From positions 1-33,951 of IMG/VR virus record IMGVR_UViG_3300042485_003195: 33,951 bases of DNA; one strand, written 5' to 3'. Position 1 is the first letter of the stretch. Each line of letters starts with the position of its first letter. The translations under genes were made by a program, and so were the position numbers. Shown in pieces: positions 1,494 through 31,566 of the stretch. This stretch comes from a virus. The notes beneath the pieces were generated by a model. It made no database searches. It was given only the letters and a program-made list of their open reading frames with translations, and was not told the DNA's origin.

Positions 1494-1550
1494 ACTACGC
1501 TCCTGTAAAATAAAAGTGAATTGGAACCACAACCATTCATAAATAATACT

Positions 1551-2018
1551 ATGAAATGCCTAAATTGTCAAGCCGAACTTACTCGTAAAGATCAAAAGAA
1601 ATTTTGTTCTCGATCTTGTTCTGCTACTTTTAACAATACAGGTCTTAGACGACATTCTAAACCTGAATCAAGATATAGCACTGTTAAACCTTGTAAAACA
1701 TGCGGTATCGAAACAGCCCGTCCAGTCTATTGTTCCGATGCATGTAATCCCCGTCGCCTAAAACTTACAGAAGAAGAAAAATATATCCGAAGCTTATCAG
1801 TACATAACGAGGCTTGGCACCGTTACATGGCTAAACGCAAAAATCAAACTCCTAACGATGTTGATATTAAAGCATTACAAGATTTTTATTTAAATTGTGC
1901 TGTTGGATACGAAGTAGATCATATTATTCCGATAAGTAAGGGCGGACTGCATTGTTTATCTAATTTGCAATACCTTACTATCAGTGAAAACAGACGCAAA
2001 TCAAATAAAATTTTATAG
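1551..2018 (+). CDS. HNH endonuclease with N-terminal zinc ribbon (155 aa), probable homing nuclease
   Basis: Two Cys-pair zinc-binding clusters (CLNC...CSRSC near the N-terminus, CKTC...CSDAC about residue 50) precede a C-terminal HNH motif: 'EVDHIIPISKGG' with 'LSNLQYL...N' and a final basic stretch. It is the only complete plus-strand gene in the window and is more A/T-rich than its neighbours. Both features fit a mobile HNH gene. The ATG at 1551 was chosen; a TTG 30 bases upstream is possible. Its TAG stop (2016-2018) abuts, with no spacer, the CCA end of tRNA-Trp on the other strand. Such nucleases cut DNA at allelic sites and may help spread the tRNA island. Confidence 0.88.
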   Translation: MKCLNCQAELTRKDQKKFCSRSCSATFNNTGLRRHSKPESRYSTVKPCKTCGIETARPVYCSDACNPRRLKLTEEEKYIRSLSVHNEAWHRYMAKRKNQTPNDVDIKALQDFYLNCAVGYEVDHIIPISKGGLHCLSNLQYLTISENRRKSNKIL

Positions 2019-6746: not shown

Positions 6747-6749
6747 AAA

Positions 6750-6885
6750 TTATATTGAAACACACTCCCAAGGGGCTGTCATTAACCCTCTTGTAACTTT
6801 GTACACCCTGTCGGGTAGCTACTCCCGTACTCTTGTACTCACCGTGAAGTTGGCACGGCAATGACAGAAATGTGCTTCAATATAA
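6750..6885 (-). ncRNA. Long-stem RNA element between structured RNA copy 2 and tRNA-Arg
   Basis: 15-base arms TTATATTGAARCACA / TGTGTTTCAATATAA (one G-U) enclose a second 8-bp helix CTGTCATT/AATGACAG (6867-6860 with 6783-6776) and a 16-base hairpin CGGG-AGTAGCTA-CCCG (6827-6812). The outer stem shares the AAACAC core with three other elements in the island. The inner hairpin has a near copy in the element at 7396-7494. No coding frame of quality. Confidence 0.55.
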
Positions 6886-6887
6886 TT

Positions 6888-7100
6888 GCTTGGGCCACGC
6901 TTTTCCACGGTCGCCCCCAAGCTGAGGTGTTGCCCTGTCCGAACACTAAAGGACTTTGCCGCGTAGTGTTCACGCTGCTCGGTTGTCTGAGGGGTTGCCT
7001 CGCTAAAGGTGCCCGAGCCACCTGGATTTTCTCGTGCACCACACGCCACTTTCAGGAAAGTGGTAACCGGAATCTTAGGGCGCCTCACATGGTCATTTAA
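6888..7100 (-). ncRNA. Putative structured RNA, copy 2
   Basis: Shares with 957-1135 the block CGGACAGGGCAACA-CTCAG (6941-6922), followed at once by a terminal hairpin (6922-6888, arms GCTTGGG/CCCAAGC), and GTGCA.GA.AAAATC (7039-7025) after a hairpin. It also holds a hairpin GAACACTA/TAGTGTTC directly before the first block. The spacing between blocks is about 47 bases longer than in copy 1. Long frames here have an odd Arg/Thr/Ser composition. The 406 bases 6747-7152 hold only this RNA and the stem element. Confidence 0.55.
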
Positions 7101-7395: not shown

Positions 7396-7494
7396 CCATA
7401 CAAAAACACTCTTGATCTCCAGTTTACTTTGCGGTAGCTAATCCGCTTTCAACCTTCTCCGATCCTGCGTCCAGTTTAGAGTGTTTTTATATGG
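7396..7494 (-). ncRNA. Long-stem element starting at the CCA of tRNA-Leu(UAG)
   Basis: 17-base arms CCATATAAAAACACTCT / AGAGTGTTTTTGTATGG with one G-U; the first three bases are the encoded CCA of the tRNA. The 65-base loop contains a hairpin GCGG-ATTAGCTA-CCGC (7446-7431) almost the same as the one in 6750-6885. It is not a classical terminator, and it separates the tRNA from the downstream membrane-protein gene. Confidence 0.6.
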
Positions 7495-7575
7495 TGCCTC
7501 GGGTCAGACTCGAACTGACACGCCTTTCAGCACTGGCTTCTAAGACCAGCGTGGCTACCATTACACCACCGAGGC
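7492..7575 (-). tRNA. tRNA-Leu(UAG)
   Basis: Type II with long variable arm, anticodon loop CTTAGAA, acceptor GCCTCGG/CCGAGGC, A73, encoded CCA that also forms the start of a long stem. Confidence 0.95.
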
Positions 7576-8651: not shown

Positions 8652-8666
8652 ATCAATCTCCTTTAA

Positions 8667-8735
8667 CCATATAAAAACACACTGTGCAGATATTAGTAAT
8701 GGCCTCTGTGGGACAATCAATGTGTTTTTATATGG
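8667..8735 (-). ncRNA. Long-stem element starting at the CCA of tRNA-Lys
   Basis: Perfect 15-base arms CCATATAAAAACACA / TGTGTTTTTATATGG enclose a 39-base loop; the first three bases are the CCA of tRNA-Lys. Same arm sequence family and position as the element after tRNA-Leu(UAG). Confidence 0.6.
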
Positions 8736-8809
8736 TAGGTGCGGTGAGACTCGAACTCACAACTTATCGGTTAAAAGCCGATTACTCTAACCAGTTGAGT
8801 TACGCACCC
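8733..8809 (-). tRNA. tRNA-Lys(UUU)
   Basis: Anticodon loop CTTTTAA, acceptor GGGTGCG/CGCACCT, A73, encoded CCA. Confidence 0.95.
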
Positions 8810-11640: not shown

Positions 11641-12888
11641 TTATTTACTGTCAACAAAAATGTTCAACGGGCAAATAGTTGTTACTGCATAGTTTGGTGG
11701 ATCTACAACGTTACCAATTCTAAGATCGCACGCCACGCTGGTCACAACGTATGCTTGCTCTTTGGTCAAACCTTTGTTTAATTGCAGCCATTCAATCATT
11801 TGGATCAAACTGTTACGTGCAGCTTGATTCAAGTCTTGACTCAAGTTGGTCAATGGTGCAATTTTCTTGCTGTCAAGGTATGCCAGGTGCGGAGGAATCT
11901 CGCCTGCATTCTTTAATGGATACCCAATAGTTGCATGGAAAGAGTCTGGCTCTAACTGCTTGAGCTGACTGCCGCCTTCAAATTGCACTGACTTGAGGGT
12001 AGCTGCACCACCTTTTCTGATACTTGTTTCTACGGTAACAATACCATTCATTTCGATTGCAGTTCCTGAAACTTCACCATCGCCTTGTGCAAAGTGAACA
12101 TCACCTACATAAAGTCCGCAGCCATCAACATAGCATGGGAAAAGCAATGTTGTACCAGCTACCATTTGCTTGACGTCCATGTTGCCGCCGTTTTCACGCG
12201 GTGGAACCGAACGAAGGCATTTGTCTTTGTGTGATCCGTCAGGTCCACAAACTTTGGCAGGATGTGCTCCGGTTGGGAAAGGTTTGAGTGCAACACCACC
12301 GGCATCAGCAAGTTGTGCTTCACGTGCCAACCATTTATCAATTTCTGGTTCGCCGGGCATGGTGCCGATGGTTCCAGCAAAAGCTGAAATTGGAATTCTA
12401 ACTCCGGGGATTTGTTCGGATTCGGCATACAAACGATTTAATCTCCAGTTGGCAATGTAAGGATCAGGGAACATGTCGCTAAGAAAATTCATGCCTGGAA
12501 TAATAGTGGTCCATCCATGTCGTTCAGGTTCGACATCAATAATTTTTACTGCCAATACATCACCTCGTTTGGCTCCTTCGATGTAAATTGGCCCAGTCAT
12601 TGGATGAACCAGACTTAGGTCAACCGCAGTAACATCTTTGGGTCGAGCATTGATATCCAGTTCAGCATCTACTGCGTCTCTGGTATGGATTCTGATCAAT
12701 TCACCGGGTTTGGCTTTGGCTACCGGTTTGATAGCTGGATGTAAACGATTGAAACAGTTTGGATCCTGTTTACATTTGACGCCTTTTTTGGGCACCTCTA
12801 CAATGGGCTGCAGAGGTCGATCTGCAAAGGCAAGATTGGCAGCAGAGGCGATGGCCAAAGTTGCCAGAAGTTTTGAAATAAAACGCAT
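11641..12888 (-). CDS. Secreted acetamidase/formamidase family protein (415 aa)
   Basis: A Sec signal peptide (residues 1-22, ...ASAANLAFA) precedes a body with the acetamidase/formamidase hallmarks: 'PGELIRIHTRDAVDAELD', 'HPMTGPIYIEGAKRGDVLAVKI', 'MPGEPE', 'NGGNMDVKQMVAGTTLLFPCYVDGCGLYVGDVHFAQGDGEVSGTAIE'. The last is the active-site region of FmdA-type enzymes. These hydrolyse formamide or short amides to the acid and ammonia. Most known members are cytoplasmic, so an exported form is unusual. AGGAG precedes the ATG and a near-consensus promoter lies about 60 bases upstream. It is likely host-derived; a supply of ammonia and formate is one possible benefit. Confidence 0.88.
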   Translation of the reverse strand: MRFISKLLATLAIASAANLAFADRPLQPIVEVPKKGVKCKQDPNCFNRLHPAIKPVAKAKPGELIRIHTRDAVDAELDINARPKDVTAVDLSLVHPMTGPIYIEGAKRGDVLAVKIIDVEPERHGWTTIIPGMNFLSDMFPDPYIANWRLNRLYAESEQIPGVRIPISAFAGTIGTMPGEPEIDKWLAREAQLADAGGVALKPFPTGAHPAKVCGPDGSHKDKCLRSVPPRENGGNMDVKQMVAGTTLLFPCYVDGCGLYVGDVHFAQGDGEVSGTAIEMNGIVTVETSIRKGGAATLKSVQFEGGSQLKQLEPDSFHATIGYPLKNAGEIPPHLAYLDSKKIAPLTNLSQDLNQAARNSLIQMIEWLQLNKGLTKEQAYVVTSVACDLRIGNVVDPPNYAVTTICPLNIFVDSK

Positions 12889-20733: not shown

Positions 20734-20775
20734 TTACGCTGCGAGAGCGAAGACCTCGTCGTTAGCTGCGTTTGC
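20734..20775 (-). other. tmRNA peptide-tag reading frame
   Basis: Resume codon GCA, then ANAANDEVFALAA and TAA. The ...ALAA end is the usual ClpXP/ClpAP degron. The preceding ATAACT resembles the alignment element before known resume codons. Confidence 0.9.
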
Positions 20776-20861
20776 AGTTATAGTTTTGCTTCTTTTACGG
20801 AGATCGCCTACCGTGTAGATCCTTTGAATACTTGCTCGTCAATCGATACTATTTCCGGCCC

Positions 20862-20993
20862 ATCAAAAAGCATTTTCAAGGTGTCCCTCTCCGATACAAC
20901 GAGGAATCGCTAACCTCGTCTGCCTATTCCACTCTTATCAGCTTTCGCATACTTACCGTGGTGGCTCGTTATATCATCGGGCAAAATGCTTTT
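20862..20993 (-). other. Intervening segment of the permuted tmRNA
   Basis: Spacer expected to be cut out, leaving the two tmRNA pieces. It holds the long closing stem with arms AAAAAGCATTTT, and an internal hairpin ACGAGG/CCTCGT with loop TTAGCGATT. Confidence 0.75.
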
Positions 20994-21071
20994 TGGTGGA
21001 CCGGCCGGGTACCGCCCCCGGGTCTTGTCCGATCTTTCTTCTTAGGCATTGTACTACAATTCTAATCTATG

Positions 21072-21680
21072 TTATTTACTTACCACAAATTGTGGATTAT
21101 GAATGTAACATACTTGTTTTTTTGGTATGTAAGTGACCAGCAGAACTCGATCTTTATCTGGATGATTGTGTACGTGTCCTTTGAATGCCGAGCCTTCGGG
21201 TTTGACCTGTACCGGAATCTCTCCGATCCAACCATCAATACCTTGTGCTTCTTCTTGGGCATCGGAAAATCTAACCGGTAAAGAATAGTACGAACCCACT
21301 GCTTGAATGGCCATTTCTTCGCCGGCCATGCCCATGTGTGTTTTATTGTATATTACTTCTTTAATATAGTCTTCACACATGTCATACGAAATGCCACCAA
21401 TTTGCATCTTTTGAATCATTTCGTACAATCTCTGTGCCTGTGCCGGAATATTGTTGGCAAAAGGTTTAGAGTTATAAAAGTTACACCAATTTTCAAAGGT
21501 GCCAGGTATGCCTTGTTGCCGCATCTCTAACCAAGTTTCTTTTGCAGATCCTACCTGCCTTACATCAAACGCTTTGCAATTTTGCCCAGCCACATTCAGC
21601 AGCTGAGTTGAATATTTAGGCCATTCGCGACGTGCGCGATGTACTACACCTTTGAAATTTTTAGCTGTAAGTTTGATCAT
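21072..21680 (-). CDS. MjaI-like restriction endonuclease family protein (202 aa)
   Basis: Pattern 'EWPKYSTQLLNVAGQNCKAF' (about residues 19-38), 'YDMCEDYIKEVIYNKTHMGMAGEEMAI' and 'EEAQGIDGWIGEIPVQVKP' (about 143-161) matches my recollection of the MjaI type II restriction endonuclease family. The D...E-x-Q/K-V-K core, as in PD-(D/E)XK nucleases, is 'GIDGWIGEIPVQVKP'. Homologues occur in several T4-like phages without a partner methylase. It may degrade host DNA or guard against other phages. Adjacent to the tmRNA acceptor piece. Confidence 0.7.
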   Translation of the reverse strand: MIKLTAKNFKGVVHRARREWPKYSTQLLNVAGQNCKAFDVRQVGSAKETWLEMRQQGIPGTFENWCNFYNSKPFANNIPAQAQRLYEMIQKMQIGGISYDMCEDYIKEVIYNKTHMGMAGEEMAIQAVGSYYSLPVRFSDAQEEAQGIDGWIGEIPVQVKPEGSAFKGHVHNHPDKDRVLLVTYIPKKQVCYIHNPQFVVSK

Positions 21681-29440: not shown

Positions 29441-30463
29441 TTATTTTTTACTGCGGCCGCTTTTCATGTTTGCACACCAGTGATACATCTTGGCTTTTTC
29501 GCCGCTGGCATTCTTGGCACGTTGGCGTAAGTCTGTGACAGAGCCGTTGCAGCTGGCTCCTGCTCTCTTCACACGCCCAGGACGGCTTTTGCTCTTAATC
29601 TTGCCATCGGCAAAATTTTCATTTACTGTTTGATCTAAAAACTGTTTTACCGCTTGGAGATGGTCACTGCCGGCCACATACACTCCCTGTTTTCGGGAAG
29701 CTAAAAACTTGTCACGTAAGTCATTTACTGATTTTGCCACGCGACCTGCACGGTTAGGATATTGTTCCCAATTATCAGGCCACATCAGCTGTTCACCCAT
29801 GGTAAAAAATCGTCTAACATTACTTTCTGTAGCAGGTGCTTGACTCATTTGAACAAAATCATACGGTCCTTCGCTGACAGCCTGTAAAAACTTTTGTAAT
29901 GTTTCAGCATCAAACTTTCTATCTGGAAAATAGTTTGTGCTGGGTTGTGTGTCAATTATTCTATCAAATATTGTAGATTCAGGATCCGATCCAATCTTGC
30001 CTTCTACCGTATCATTCTCTTTTATATTAGAGAATAGAACATATAAGAATGGTGCAGGATATCCTTTGATGGCCGGAGATAACAAATCGTCATCCCAACT
30101 ACCTTCATAATCGTCAATGATGCCTTGGGTAAGTTTGCGATCCATACCATTGCCTTCGTACCAGGCACCGTGACGTTGGGCAATGGCTTGTACTCTTTCA
30201 GCGTCAGAATCTGACAACTGTAATCGCTTGCCATGTTCTTGTCCCACAATAGCAGTATCGTTGCCTATAAAAAGCACCTTGCTGGTTTTGGCTTCTGTGA
30301 CACTTTCTCCACCGCCACCATCTCCACCACCATCGCCTGACTCGCCGCCGTACGCACCACTGCCGTAATAACCGTAGCCGGGATACCAGTAACCGCCGAA
30401 ATATTTGTTGCTGCGTTTACGTTTTTTCTTTTTACGTTCAGTTACAAACTCGTCGGCTCTCAT
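29441..30463 (-). CDS. Putative internal head protein with MRADEFVTE leader and conserved basic tail (340 aa)
   Basis: MRADEFVTE resembles the capsid-targeting leader of T4 internal head proteins, cleaved by the prohead protease after x-x-E. Then follow a Lys/Arg stretch, a Gly/Tyr linker (residues 20-55), an alpha/beta domain with 'NDTAIVGQEHGKRLQL', and a basic end 'SKSRPGRVKRAGASCNGSVTDLRQRAKNASGEKAKMYHWCANMKSGRSKK'. That end is, as I recall, shared by several T4-like phage head proteins. ATGA-coupled to the upstream gene. Confidence 0.65.
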   Translation of the reverse strand: MRADEFVTERKKKKRKRSNKYFGGYWYPGYGYYGSGAYGGESGDGGGDGGGGESVTEAKTSKVLFIGNDTAIVGQEHGKRLQLSDSDAERVQAIAQRHGAWYEGNGMDRKLTQGIIDDYEGSWDDDLLSPAIKGYPAPFLYVLFSNIKENDTVEGKIGSDPESTIFDRIIDTQPSTNYFPDRKFDAETLQKFLQAVSEGPYDFVQMSQAPATESNVRRFFTMGEQLMWPDNWEQYPNRAGRVAKSVNDLRDKFLASRKQGVYVAGSDHLQAVKQFLDQTVNENFADGKIKSKSRPGRVKRAGASCNGSVTDLRQRAKNASGEKAKMYHWCANMKSGRSKK

Positions 30464-31566
30464 AGATTTCTTTCCCAGATCACAAAAGGATCATTGACCA
30501 CAATAGTACCGTCTGGTCGTTGCATATAATTACCACGATGTAGATCTATGCTGTAGTTGTGTTTTCTTGCAAATTGTTGCACTGTCTTTACAGTCTTTAA
30601 TAAATTCTTTGCTGCCTCTGCTCCGCCCAGTAATTCCATTGTATTCTCAATTTCGTAGTAGTAGGGATCTTCGTCTTCATAACTGCTGTGTTGAGCATAA
30701 TTGATTAGGGTGTTGAATGCAGTATCATAATTGTTTTTTCTTAATTTCCGAACAGCTTCTTCAATGTTACCGACCAGATTACCTACTTCGCCGGGTAATT
30801 CTCGTAGTGCTTCCATTCTGGCCTGGATGTATCGTCTGCCTTGAAATTCAAAACTTTCAAAGCCTGAGAACTTGGGCAAGTGCGGATTGTTTGAATTTTT
30901 ATTACAATAGTTGATCCAGTTTACAAACATTCTTTGATCCGGACTAAAGTCAAATATTGTGCCTTGACGATAGCCAAACACAATCAATACTTGTCCACCG
31001 GGTTCCAGATAGGCCTGTTTGTCTATACCGCCACCAAGATATTTGTAGCCTTTTTTTGCAAGATATTGGCTGATACCAACATTTATTTTGCCAGCCATTT
31101 CATCAAGATCGTCTTCCTTGACTGGTCCCCATGTACCTGTAGTTTTATCAATTACTTCGGCATCTCCAGTTCTGCCTGCTGTCCAGCGAGGCAGCTTTTC
31201 TTGCGGTAATCTTACTTGTGCGTTGTCTGGAGTGTCTTTCCAGGCTCGACCAAAATAACCTTCGGTATCACCTTGGCTCCAATACTTTTTATCTGTATCC
31301 CATGTGGTACGACCGGGGGCTGGATTCTTTTCAAAGTAGCCGGACTTGCGAGCTGCCGCTAATTCTTCTGGGCTCATGTTTCTATACACATGCGAAACAT
31401 CATCAGGGCTACCAGGAACCCGGCCACCAAACATGCCGCCTTTGGGTTGATCTATGGTATTTTTTACACGAGGAGCTTGACCGGCTGCATAGTCAAAGGC
31501 ATCTTTGCCCAGTTTCCATAACCAGCTTCTAAGACCACCTTCGTTTAAAAAATCATCTGCTCTCAT
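30460..31566 (-). CDS. Putative packaged effector: ADP-ribosyltransferase-like plus kinase-like protein (368 aa)
   Basis: Leader MRADDFLNE fits a capsid-targeting sequence (L-x-E cleavage). Residues about 55-130 ('DVSHVYRNMSPEELAAARKSGYF...DTEGYFGRAWKD') resemble an ADP-ribosyltransferase N-terminal region ('YR-x-MS..EE'). Residues about 165-368 look like a kinase fold: 'YLGGGIDKQAYLEPGGQVLIVFGY' (Gly loop and Lys strand absent in classic form) and 'SIDLHRGNYMQRPDGTIVVNDPFV' (catalytic HRxxN and DPF). It may modify host proteins after injection, like T4 Alt. Assignments are by eye. Confidence 0.6.
   Translation of the reverse strand: MRADDFLNEGGLRSWLWKLGKDAFDYAAGQAPRVKNTIDQPKGGMFGGRVPGSPDDVSHVYRNMSPEELAAARKSGYFEKNPAPGRTTWDTDKKYWSQGDTEGYFGRAWKDTPDNAQVRLPQEKLPRWTAGRTGDAEVIDKTTGTWGPVKEDDLDEMAGKINVGISQYLAKKGYKYLGGGIDKQAYLEPGGQVLIVFGYRQGTIFDFSPDQRMFVNWINYCNKNSNNPHLPKFSGFESFEFQGRRYIQARMEALRELPGEVGNLVGNIEEAVRKLRKNNYDTAFNTLINYAQHSSYEDEDPYYYEIENTMELLGGAEAAKNLLKTVKTVQQFARKHNYSIDLHRGNYMQRPDGTIVVNDPFVIWERNL

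Follow-up and report, generated by a model that had tools for sequence, protein, structure and literature searches.

What are the two similar stretches of DNA that interrupt the tRNA array of this phage? The window analysed here, the whole 33,951-nt stretch of IMG/VR record IMGVR_UViG_3300042485_003195, carries an array of 28 tRNAs, all on the minus strand. A sequence-only reading had proposed that regions 957-1135 and 6888-7100 of this array encode two copies of an unrecognised structured RNA, and had named two outcomes beforehand that would speak against it, a significant hit to a known Rfam family and a lack of covariation between the copies. Rfam 15 has no match on either copy, and covariation is strong in both types of the RNA and in their common 3' domain. 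We are therefore almost certain that the two regions, diverged from one another and denoted copy B and copy A respectively, belong to a real family of structured RNAs that is absent from Rfam. The proposed ends were roughly right; the RNAs themselves span ~957-1148 (copy B) and ~6888-7071 (copy A).

Two motifs had been reported as common to the copies. The first, CGGACAGGGCAACA-CTCAG, is present exactly, as CGGACAGGGCAACANCTCAG, at 987-1006 and 6922-6941 on the minus strand; at up to three mismatches the window contains no third site, and 0 are expected (100 shuffles). The second, GTGCA.GA.AAAATC, did not survive inspection. The sequence is GTGCACGAGAAAATC in copy A but GTGCAAGAAAAATC, shorter by one base, in copy B. 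It lies 5' of a pseudoknotted hairpin in copy A and within helix P3, on the 3' strand, in copy B. Since the lengths differ and the structural positions are not equivalent, the likeness is most likely accidental. The 'differing hairpins' noticed between the shared motifs proved to be the 5' halves of two paralogous types with one architecture, type 1 (copy B) and type 2 (copy A).

Relatives were collected from IMG/VR by motif scans in which tRNAs played no part. An exact scan with GGACAGGGCAACANCTCAG returned 10 contigs, with every match in a tRNA array. Dropping 'GG' from the motif added 12 contigs that have neither tRNAs in the fetched DNA nor the 3' hairpin P5, and for that reason they serve as a natural negative control. 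Scanning with CCGGTTACYACTTTCCTGAAAGTRG, a motif from the 5' part of copy A, gave 47 contigs, and the core follows ~100-140 nt downstream in all but one, which is cut off by the contig edge. A variant core, GGACAGRGTAACMRCTCAG, yielded at least 120 stretches. After removal of chance matches and duplicates, IMG/VR phage contigs contain at least 145 unique RNAs, at least 107 of type 1 and at least 38 of type 2. No relative was detected among 50,697 deposited phage records (INPHARED), where the sole match is a weak 20-nt stretch inside a coding gene. Cellular genomes (GTDB) were checked with one exact pattern; its single match (L105, Shimia) was rejected because no P5 follows.

Among the matches listed, 142 of 145 RNAs share their locus with tRNAs on the same strand (median distance 150 nt), and the tRNAs within 4 kb number 1,677 on the same strand versus 0 on the opposite strand, a count that treats neighbouring loci of one phage separately. 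Where 4 kb is known on each side, tRNAs occur both upstream and downstream in 19 of 21 listed cases. The position of the RNA within the array is variable, usually mid-array. In 67 of the 145 listed matches the 5' end of the RNA lies no more than 30 nt from the end of a tRNA; some copies are preceded by protein genes instead.

Table 1. Positions of the two RNA copies, their structural elements and the adjoining Ro60/TROVE-like genes (window numbering unless a locus is given; 5' strand first for paired elements)
Feature	Position	Strand	Remarks
Copy B, type-1 RNA	~1148 (5' end) to ~957 (3' end)	minus	follows tRNA-Met 1156-1227
Copy B PK1 stem S1	1142-1146 (CGCAG) with 1131-1135 (CTGCG)	minus	85% of cells paired, compensatory changes
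Copy B PK1 stem S2	1136-1140 (CCCTT) with 1120-1124 (AAGGG)	minus	97.6% of cells paired
Copy B PK2	1095-1119	minus	hairpin P2: 1110-1113 with 1095-1098
Copy B PK2 loop pairing	ACC 1104-1106 with GGU 1117-1119	minus	
Copy B PK3 short stem GGC/GCC	1091-1093 with 1075-1077, plus G.U 1094/1074	minus	
Copy B P3	1082-1087 with 1040-1045	minus	crosses PK3 stem; covariation alignment
Copy B hairpin Ph	1066-1069 with 1055-1058	minus	inside PK3; covariation alignment
Copy B helix P4	1028-1033 with 1006-1011	minus	directly 5' of core; scans versus shuffles
Copy B PK4 (possible)	P4 loop CC 1021-1022 with core GG	minus	
Copy B invariant core	987-1005	minus	GGACAGGGCAACAACTCAG
Copy B P5	957-987	minus	P5a 982-987/957-962; P5b 976-978/967-969; internal loop GGC (979-981)/GTAG (963-966)
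Copy A, type-2 RNA	~7071 (5' end) to ~6888 (3' end)	minus	
Copy A PK1	S1 7067-7068 with 7055-7056; S2 7057-7063 with 7046-7052	minus	
Copy A PK3 stem	7019-7023 with 7007-7011	minus	
Copy A PK3 loop pairing	7013-7018 (GCTCGG) with 6977-6982 (CCGAGC)	minus	
Copy A helix P4	6964-6971 with 6941-6948	minus	directly 5' of core
Copy A invariant core	6922-6940	minus	GGACAGGGCAACACCTCAG, with mini-hairpin GRG/CUC
Copy A terminal hairpin P5	6888-6922	minus	internal loop GGC/GTGG
Ro60/TROVE-like genes (DUF2828+DUF7788)	L051:7552-8967, L111:1487-2935		directly upstream of RNA

Comparative alignment shows an RNA of ~180-220 nt whose elements are an H-type pseudoknot (PK1), two further pseudoknots (PK2, PK3), helix P4, the core and the terminal hairpin P5 (Table 1). 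It is covariation, not folding energy, that reveals it. Minimum-free-energy folding gives z of about 0, with energies no lower than those of shuffles, as expected if pseudoknots carry the fold, so that the z-score is uninformative and adds no independent support; a generic scan for H-type pseudoknots separated real from shuffled sequences weakly (89% versus 58% at 9 bp).

Type-1 RNAs have the order PK1, PK2, PK3 with hairpin Ph, P4, core, P5. Stem S1 of PK1 is CGN/NCG and crosses S2 (for example CCCTT/AAGGG, ACACUUU/AAAGUG, CAACC/GGUUG or GAUUGUUU/AAACAAUC); the same crossing makes PK1 of copy B an H-type pseudoknot. In PK2 the P2 loop, RCC, pairs with a GGY that adjoins S2. This pairing was spotted by eye and tested afterwards in 97 sequences, in which 90% are paired versus 74% after shuffling (maximum 79%) and the pairs swap (58 G-C versus 29 C-G; 64 U-A versus 11 C-G). 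PK2 is thus shown for type 1 at the level of covariation. PK3 is built on a hairpin with the stem GGY/RCC; pairing of its loop with a strand farther downstream makes P3, and Ph lies between them. The short stem of PK3 is paired in 100% of cells, with CG changed to UA in 10 of 25 sequences. Type-1 P4 pairs poorly (54%) on the MAFFT alignment, which we attribute to misalignment. The motif CCANAAR occurs in 56% of type-1 P4 loops versus 3% of shuffled ones, and its CC may pair with the GG of the core in a fourth pseudoknot, PK4, in which covariation cannot show because the core is invariant. Over 25 type-1 sequences, 83.7% of cells are paired versus 71.5% in shuffles, and 85 cells versus 33 are changed on both sides; 0 of 500 shuffles reach the observed score. 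Sliding the partners by 1-3 columns lowers pairing to 33-50%.

Type-2 RNAs have the order PK1, PK3, P4, core, P5. Both PK1 stems are 100% paired, with one GC to CG swap in S1. PK3 can be written GGUG[GCUAUGG]CACC with CAUAGC; its helices are 96% and 98% paired and the loop pairing exists as the compensatory variants GCTATG/CATAGC, GCTAGG/CCTAGC and GCTCGG/CCGAGC. Six of the eight P4 pairs have changes on both sides, and the mini-hairpin of the core is 100% paired, one pair varying between G.U and A-U. Overall, 94.5% of cells are paired versus 87.3% in shuffles and double changes number 63 versus 16.5 (0 of 500 shuffles as good), while slid controls fall to 36-46%.

The two types share their 3' domain. 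The core, GGACAG[G/A]G[Y/A][A/G]AC[A/C][R]CUC or more briefly GGACAGRGYAACMRCUC, is nearly invariant in both and includes a 3-bp mini-hairpin, G-R-G/C-U-C. Hairpin P5, which carries a conserved GGC/GURG internal loop, is 91.8% paired in 15 sequences of both types versus 66% in shuffles, and its outer helix P5a is 100% paired with 26 double-change cells in the same 15 sequences. Because shuffles ignore the kinship of the sequences, we give the slid controls and the independent pair changes more weight than the 0/500 counts.

This structure does not correspond to a catalogued RNA. Neither copy matched Rfam 15 at gathering thresholds. With E ≤ 5 and permissive filters the copy A region remained without any match, and the copy B region showed nothing beyond the adjacent tRNA and an antisense shadow of it. 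A scan at E ≤ 1 of seven further loci, which carry other type-1 RNAs, likewise left the RNA itself unmatched. Among 4,227 Rfam families no relative of the class was detectable, and a search of the open-access literature found no prior description. Both copies combine a GGACAG[GA]G core, a P4 on its 5' side, a P5 with a GGC/GURG loop on its 3' side and a place in a tRNA array. GOLLD (RF02032) matched neither copy at any threshold used and is absent from the window's record. ROOL gave no match in whole-library scans, and ~180-220 nt compares with the ~600 nt or more set for it. RNase P RNA likewise had no match, and its long-range P4 helix is absent from the covariation-supported structure. For tmRNA, Rfam places the window's only match at 20734-21075, at neither copy; identity with GOLLD or tmRNA was rejected, as both sit at other loci of the same records. 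Protein coding was also rejected: any given frame of the six is open across the RNA in only 1-7% of sequences. We are dealing with an RNA class without a detectable known relative, which as an ecological kind, a structured RNA of phage tRNA islands, joins GOLLD and ROOL.

The copy number of the RNA was followed with R1, a covariance model of the core and P5 that was searched against 88 whole records, with one record run a second time. R1 scores copy B at 73.5 bits and copy A at 47.5 bits, matches all 88 records and has three strong matches in none. In the first record set two matches were found in 18 of 43, typically one of each type; almost all records of the second set, including those of 355, 229 and 202 kb, have a single match. 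Even records of 355-365 kb hold one copy, or one per type, where single copies are lower bounds because IMG/VR contigs may be fragments. On these matches, most phages appear to carry type 1 only and the lineage of the window both types. Type 1 therefore behaves as a gene present once per phage, type 2 looks like a paralogue acquired in one lineage, that of the window, and the copy number is unlike that of a repeat or an array spacer. In the type-1 RNAs of two loci (L134, L218), sequence similar to the upstream coiled-coil gene (see below) stands in place of the 5' half, an arrangement that looks like a recombination product or an assembly chimera.

Carrier phages are large and have many translation genes. 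Of 43 large carrier records, 27 contain a permuted tmRNA, and all 14 records longer than 150 kb have one; counted among carrier records, this co-occurrence may reflect related phages only. Two-piece tmRNAs have been reported earlier in aquatic phages (PMC9004378). At 20734-21680 (minus strand) the window has a permuted two-piece tmRNA gene (RF04321, 117 bits) adjoining a gene for an MjaI-type restriction endonuclease (E 2e-23). GOLLD, present in 7 of 43 carrier records, was rejected as a constant companion, and no downstream gene is constant among the RNA loci. Often directly upstream of type-1 RNAs is a gene for a conserved coiled-coil protein of ~190 aa ending in ...LQAEGL(L/I) (L110:6444-7016 and about 20 further loci). 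Its sole relative among deposited phages, at 26% identity a distant one, is in Caulobacter phage CcrPW, and no RNA of this family was found in CcrPW, which has a 290-nt gap after that homologue. A 74-aa RNA polymerase omega/Rpb6-like gene (E 2e-6) lies directly upstream of the RNA at L140:4683-4904, and a similar gene precedes it at L160.

Other genes of the window include a phage acetamidase/formamidase (FmdA_AmdA, E 3e-90; 11641-12888, minus strand) and, inside the tRNA array on the opposite strand, an open reading frame (1521-2018, plus strand) whose translation is by eye HNH endonuclease-like. The product of 30460-31566 (minus strand) weakly matches phrog_15752 (E 9e-9), a protein kinase inhibiting host transcription and acting on RNase III/E. 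Three stretches (6748-6887, 7396-7495 and 8666-8736) are flanked by near-perfect inverted repeats of 17-19 nt, of the type TATAAAAACACT/AGTGTTTTTATATGG. Each directly adjoins a tRNA or copy A, and in other phages type-2 RNAs are preceded by similar arms; the stretches look like another recurring array element.

What might the RNA do? The reading we prefer, although we judge the case for it evenly balanced, is that of a trans-acting RNA that is freed from the tRNA-array precursor and binds a host partner, one that probably belongs to translation or RNA processing. The RNA would be transcribed as part of that precursor and released by the host enzymes that excise the tRNAs. Its chain of pseudoknots may form a stable, nuclease-resistant scaffold that lets the RNA persist and act in trans by displaying its invariant core and P5 internal loop to a conserved partner. 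The partner is probably host-encoded, since no single phage gene accompanies the RNA, and translation or RNA turnover is the most likely domain given the genomic company of the RNA; the candidate would be a macromolecule of the host translation or RNA-processing machinery, which the phage tRNAs and tmRNA supplement. A bolder proposal seems to us rather unlikely: a new class of phage RNA that on its own redirects host translation or RNA turnover, its pseudoknot chain exposing an invariant core that either is catalytic or binds the ribosome or a central RNase, in phages already equipped with tRNAs and a two-piece tmRNA.

Alternatively the RNA could be a cis-acting element of the array, guiding processing, stabilizing the long untranslated precursor or preventing premature termination. 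Strict co-orientation with the tRNAs is consistent with this, as are the tRNAs close to the 5' end (see above) and those that start within 60 nt of the 3' end in 34 of 145 listed matches, and pseudoknots can block nucleases. However, each phage has one copy, or one per type, and the usual position is mid-array, whereas an antiterminator is expected at the start and a terminator at the end; a terminator was in fact rejected on the 34 tRNAs just mentioned. Some copies follow protein genes rather than tRNAs, and the nearly invariant core is longer than such a role should need. We regard a cis-acting role as unlikely.

The positions of some relatives raise the possibility of a Y-RNA-like partner of a phage Ro60/TROVE-like protein (DUF2828+DUF7788), in a ribonucleoprotein for RNA repair or degradation. 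Such a gene ends a few nt before the RNA starts in L051 and ~30 nt before it in L111, and in 42 large records all six DUF7788 genes lie within ~10 kb of it on the same strand. The fold predicted for the L051 protein (mean pLDDT 66) has as its best matches the TROVE domain and the Ro60 of Thermus phage phiLo (Foldseek E 4e-8). A survey of jumbo phages notes that some encode a TROVE protein, a kind of protein that in cells acts together with a tRNA-like RNA (PMC7824862). However, the gene is absent from 36 of the 42 large records, including all with both RNA types, and in 677 deposited phage records with a Ro60/TROVE-like protein no RNA of this family was detected; an obligatory partnership was rejected on both counts, and the protein is for the same reasons a lead rather than an explanation. 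Like bacterial Y RNAs (YrlA) with Ro60 (Rsr), some relatives directly follow a Ro60-like gene. Unlike them, the phage RNA has no tRNA-like module, no match to a Y RNA or YrlA model of Rfam (both copies and the seven type-1 loci) and no end-closing stem: its 5' end is in PK1 and its 3' end in P5, each pairing locally. Also unlike those systems, most carriers have no Ro60-like protein. We find this reading doubtful.

Just as doubtful is an anti-defence role, in which the RNA would be a stable mimic acting as a decoy for a host nuclease or CRISPR effector that targets phage RNA or tRNA. Phage tRNAs are known to help in evading tRNA-targeting defences (PMC10264068, PMC11555353), and a small, structured, single-copy RNA without a constant partner gene would suit this role. 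Yet the Rfam scans show no likeness to tRNAs or other catalogued RNAs, and very strong conservation of a core across diverse phages is unusual in an arms race.

It is highly improbable that the RNA is a self-cleaving ribozyme trimming the 3' end of the preceding tRNA in the manner of theta (HDV-like) ribozymes. Like these small pseudoknotted RNAs, which hold exactly that place in other phages (PMC10879173), it lies directly downstream of phage tRNAs, often beginning a few nt past the CCA. That spacing, however, varies from 0 to 11 nt, and many copies are preceded by protein genes. Shuffled sequences have a 5'-terminal P1 helix of at least 6 bp about as often (8.9%) as the RNA does (9.7%), and the helix order differs, on which an HDV-like ribozyme was rejected. 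The RNA is moreover one per phage and three to four times longer than the 56-nt theta example (PMC10879173). That it is a degenerate or partial GOLLD, ROOL, RNase P RNA or tmRNA is scarcely credible: GOLLD shares the niche in 7 of 43 carrier records, but GOLLD and the permuted tmRNA are separate loci of the same genomes, and no sub-threshold Rfam match was found.

tmRNA contains a chain of H-type pseudoknots. The new RNA resembles it, and its permuted two-piece form (RF04321), in having such a chain and in occurring in the same phages; unlike tmRNA it has no detected tRNA-like domain, and those genomes have a separate tmRNA gene. GOLLD and ROOL are structured phage RNAs that are often near tRNA islands (PMC12286853). 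They differ from the new RNA in size (many GOLLD RNAs exceed 800 nt and a ROOL example has 659 nt), in architecture and core, and in occupying separate loci.

Few structured RNAs encoded by phages are known, and this one adds a compact class of ~190 nt with at least 145 distinct sequences. Its small size suits it to structure probing, binding assays and cryo-EM, and one hypothesis can be tested directly because in some phages the RNA lies next to a Ro60-like gene. The family, real and widespread in large environmental phages, gives a handle on the non-tRNA content of their tRNA arrays.
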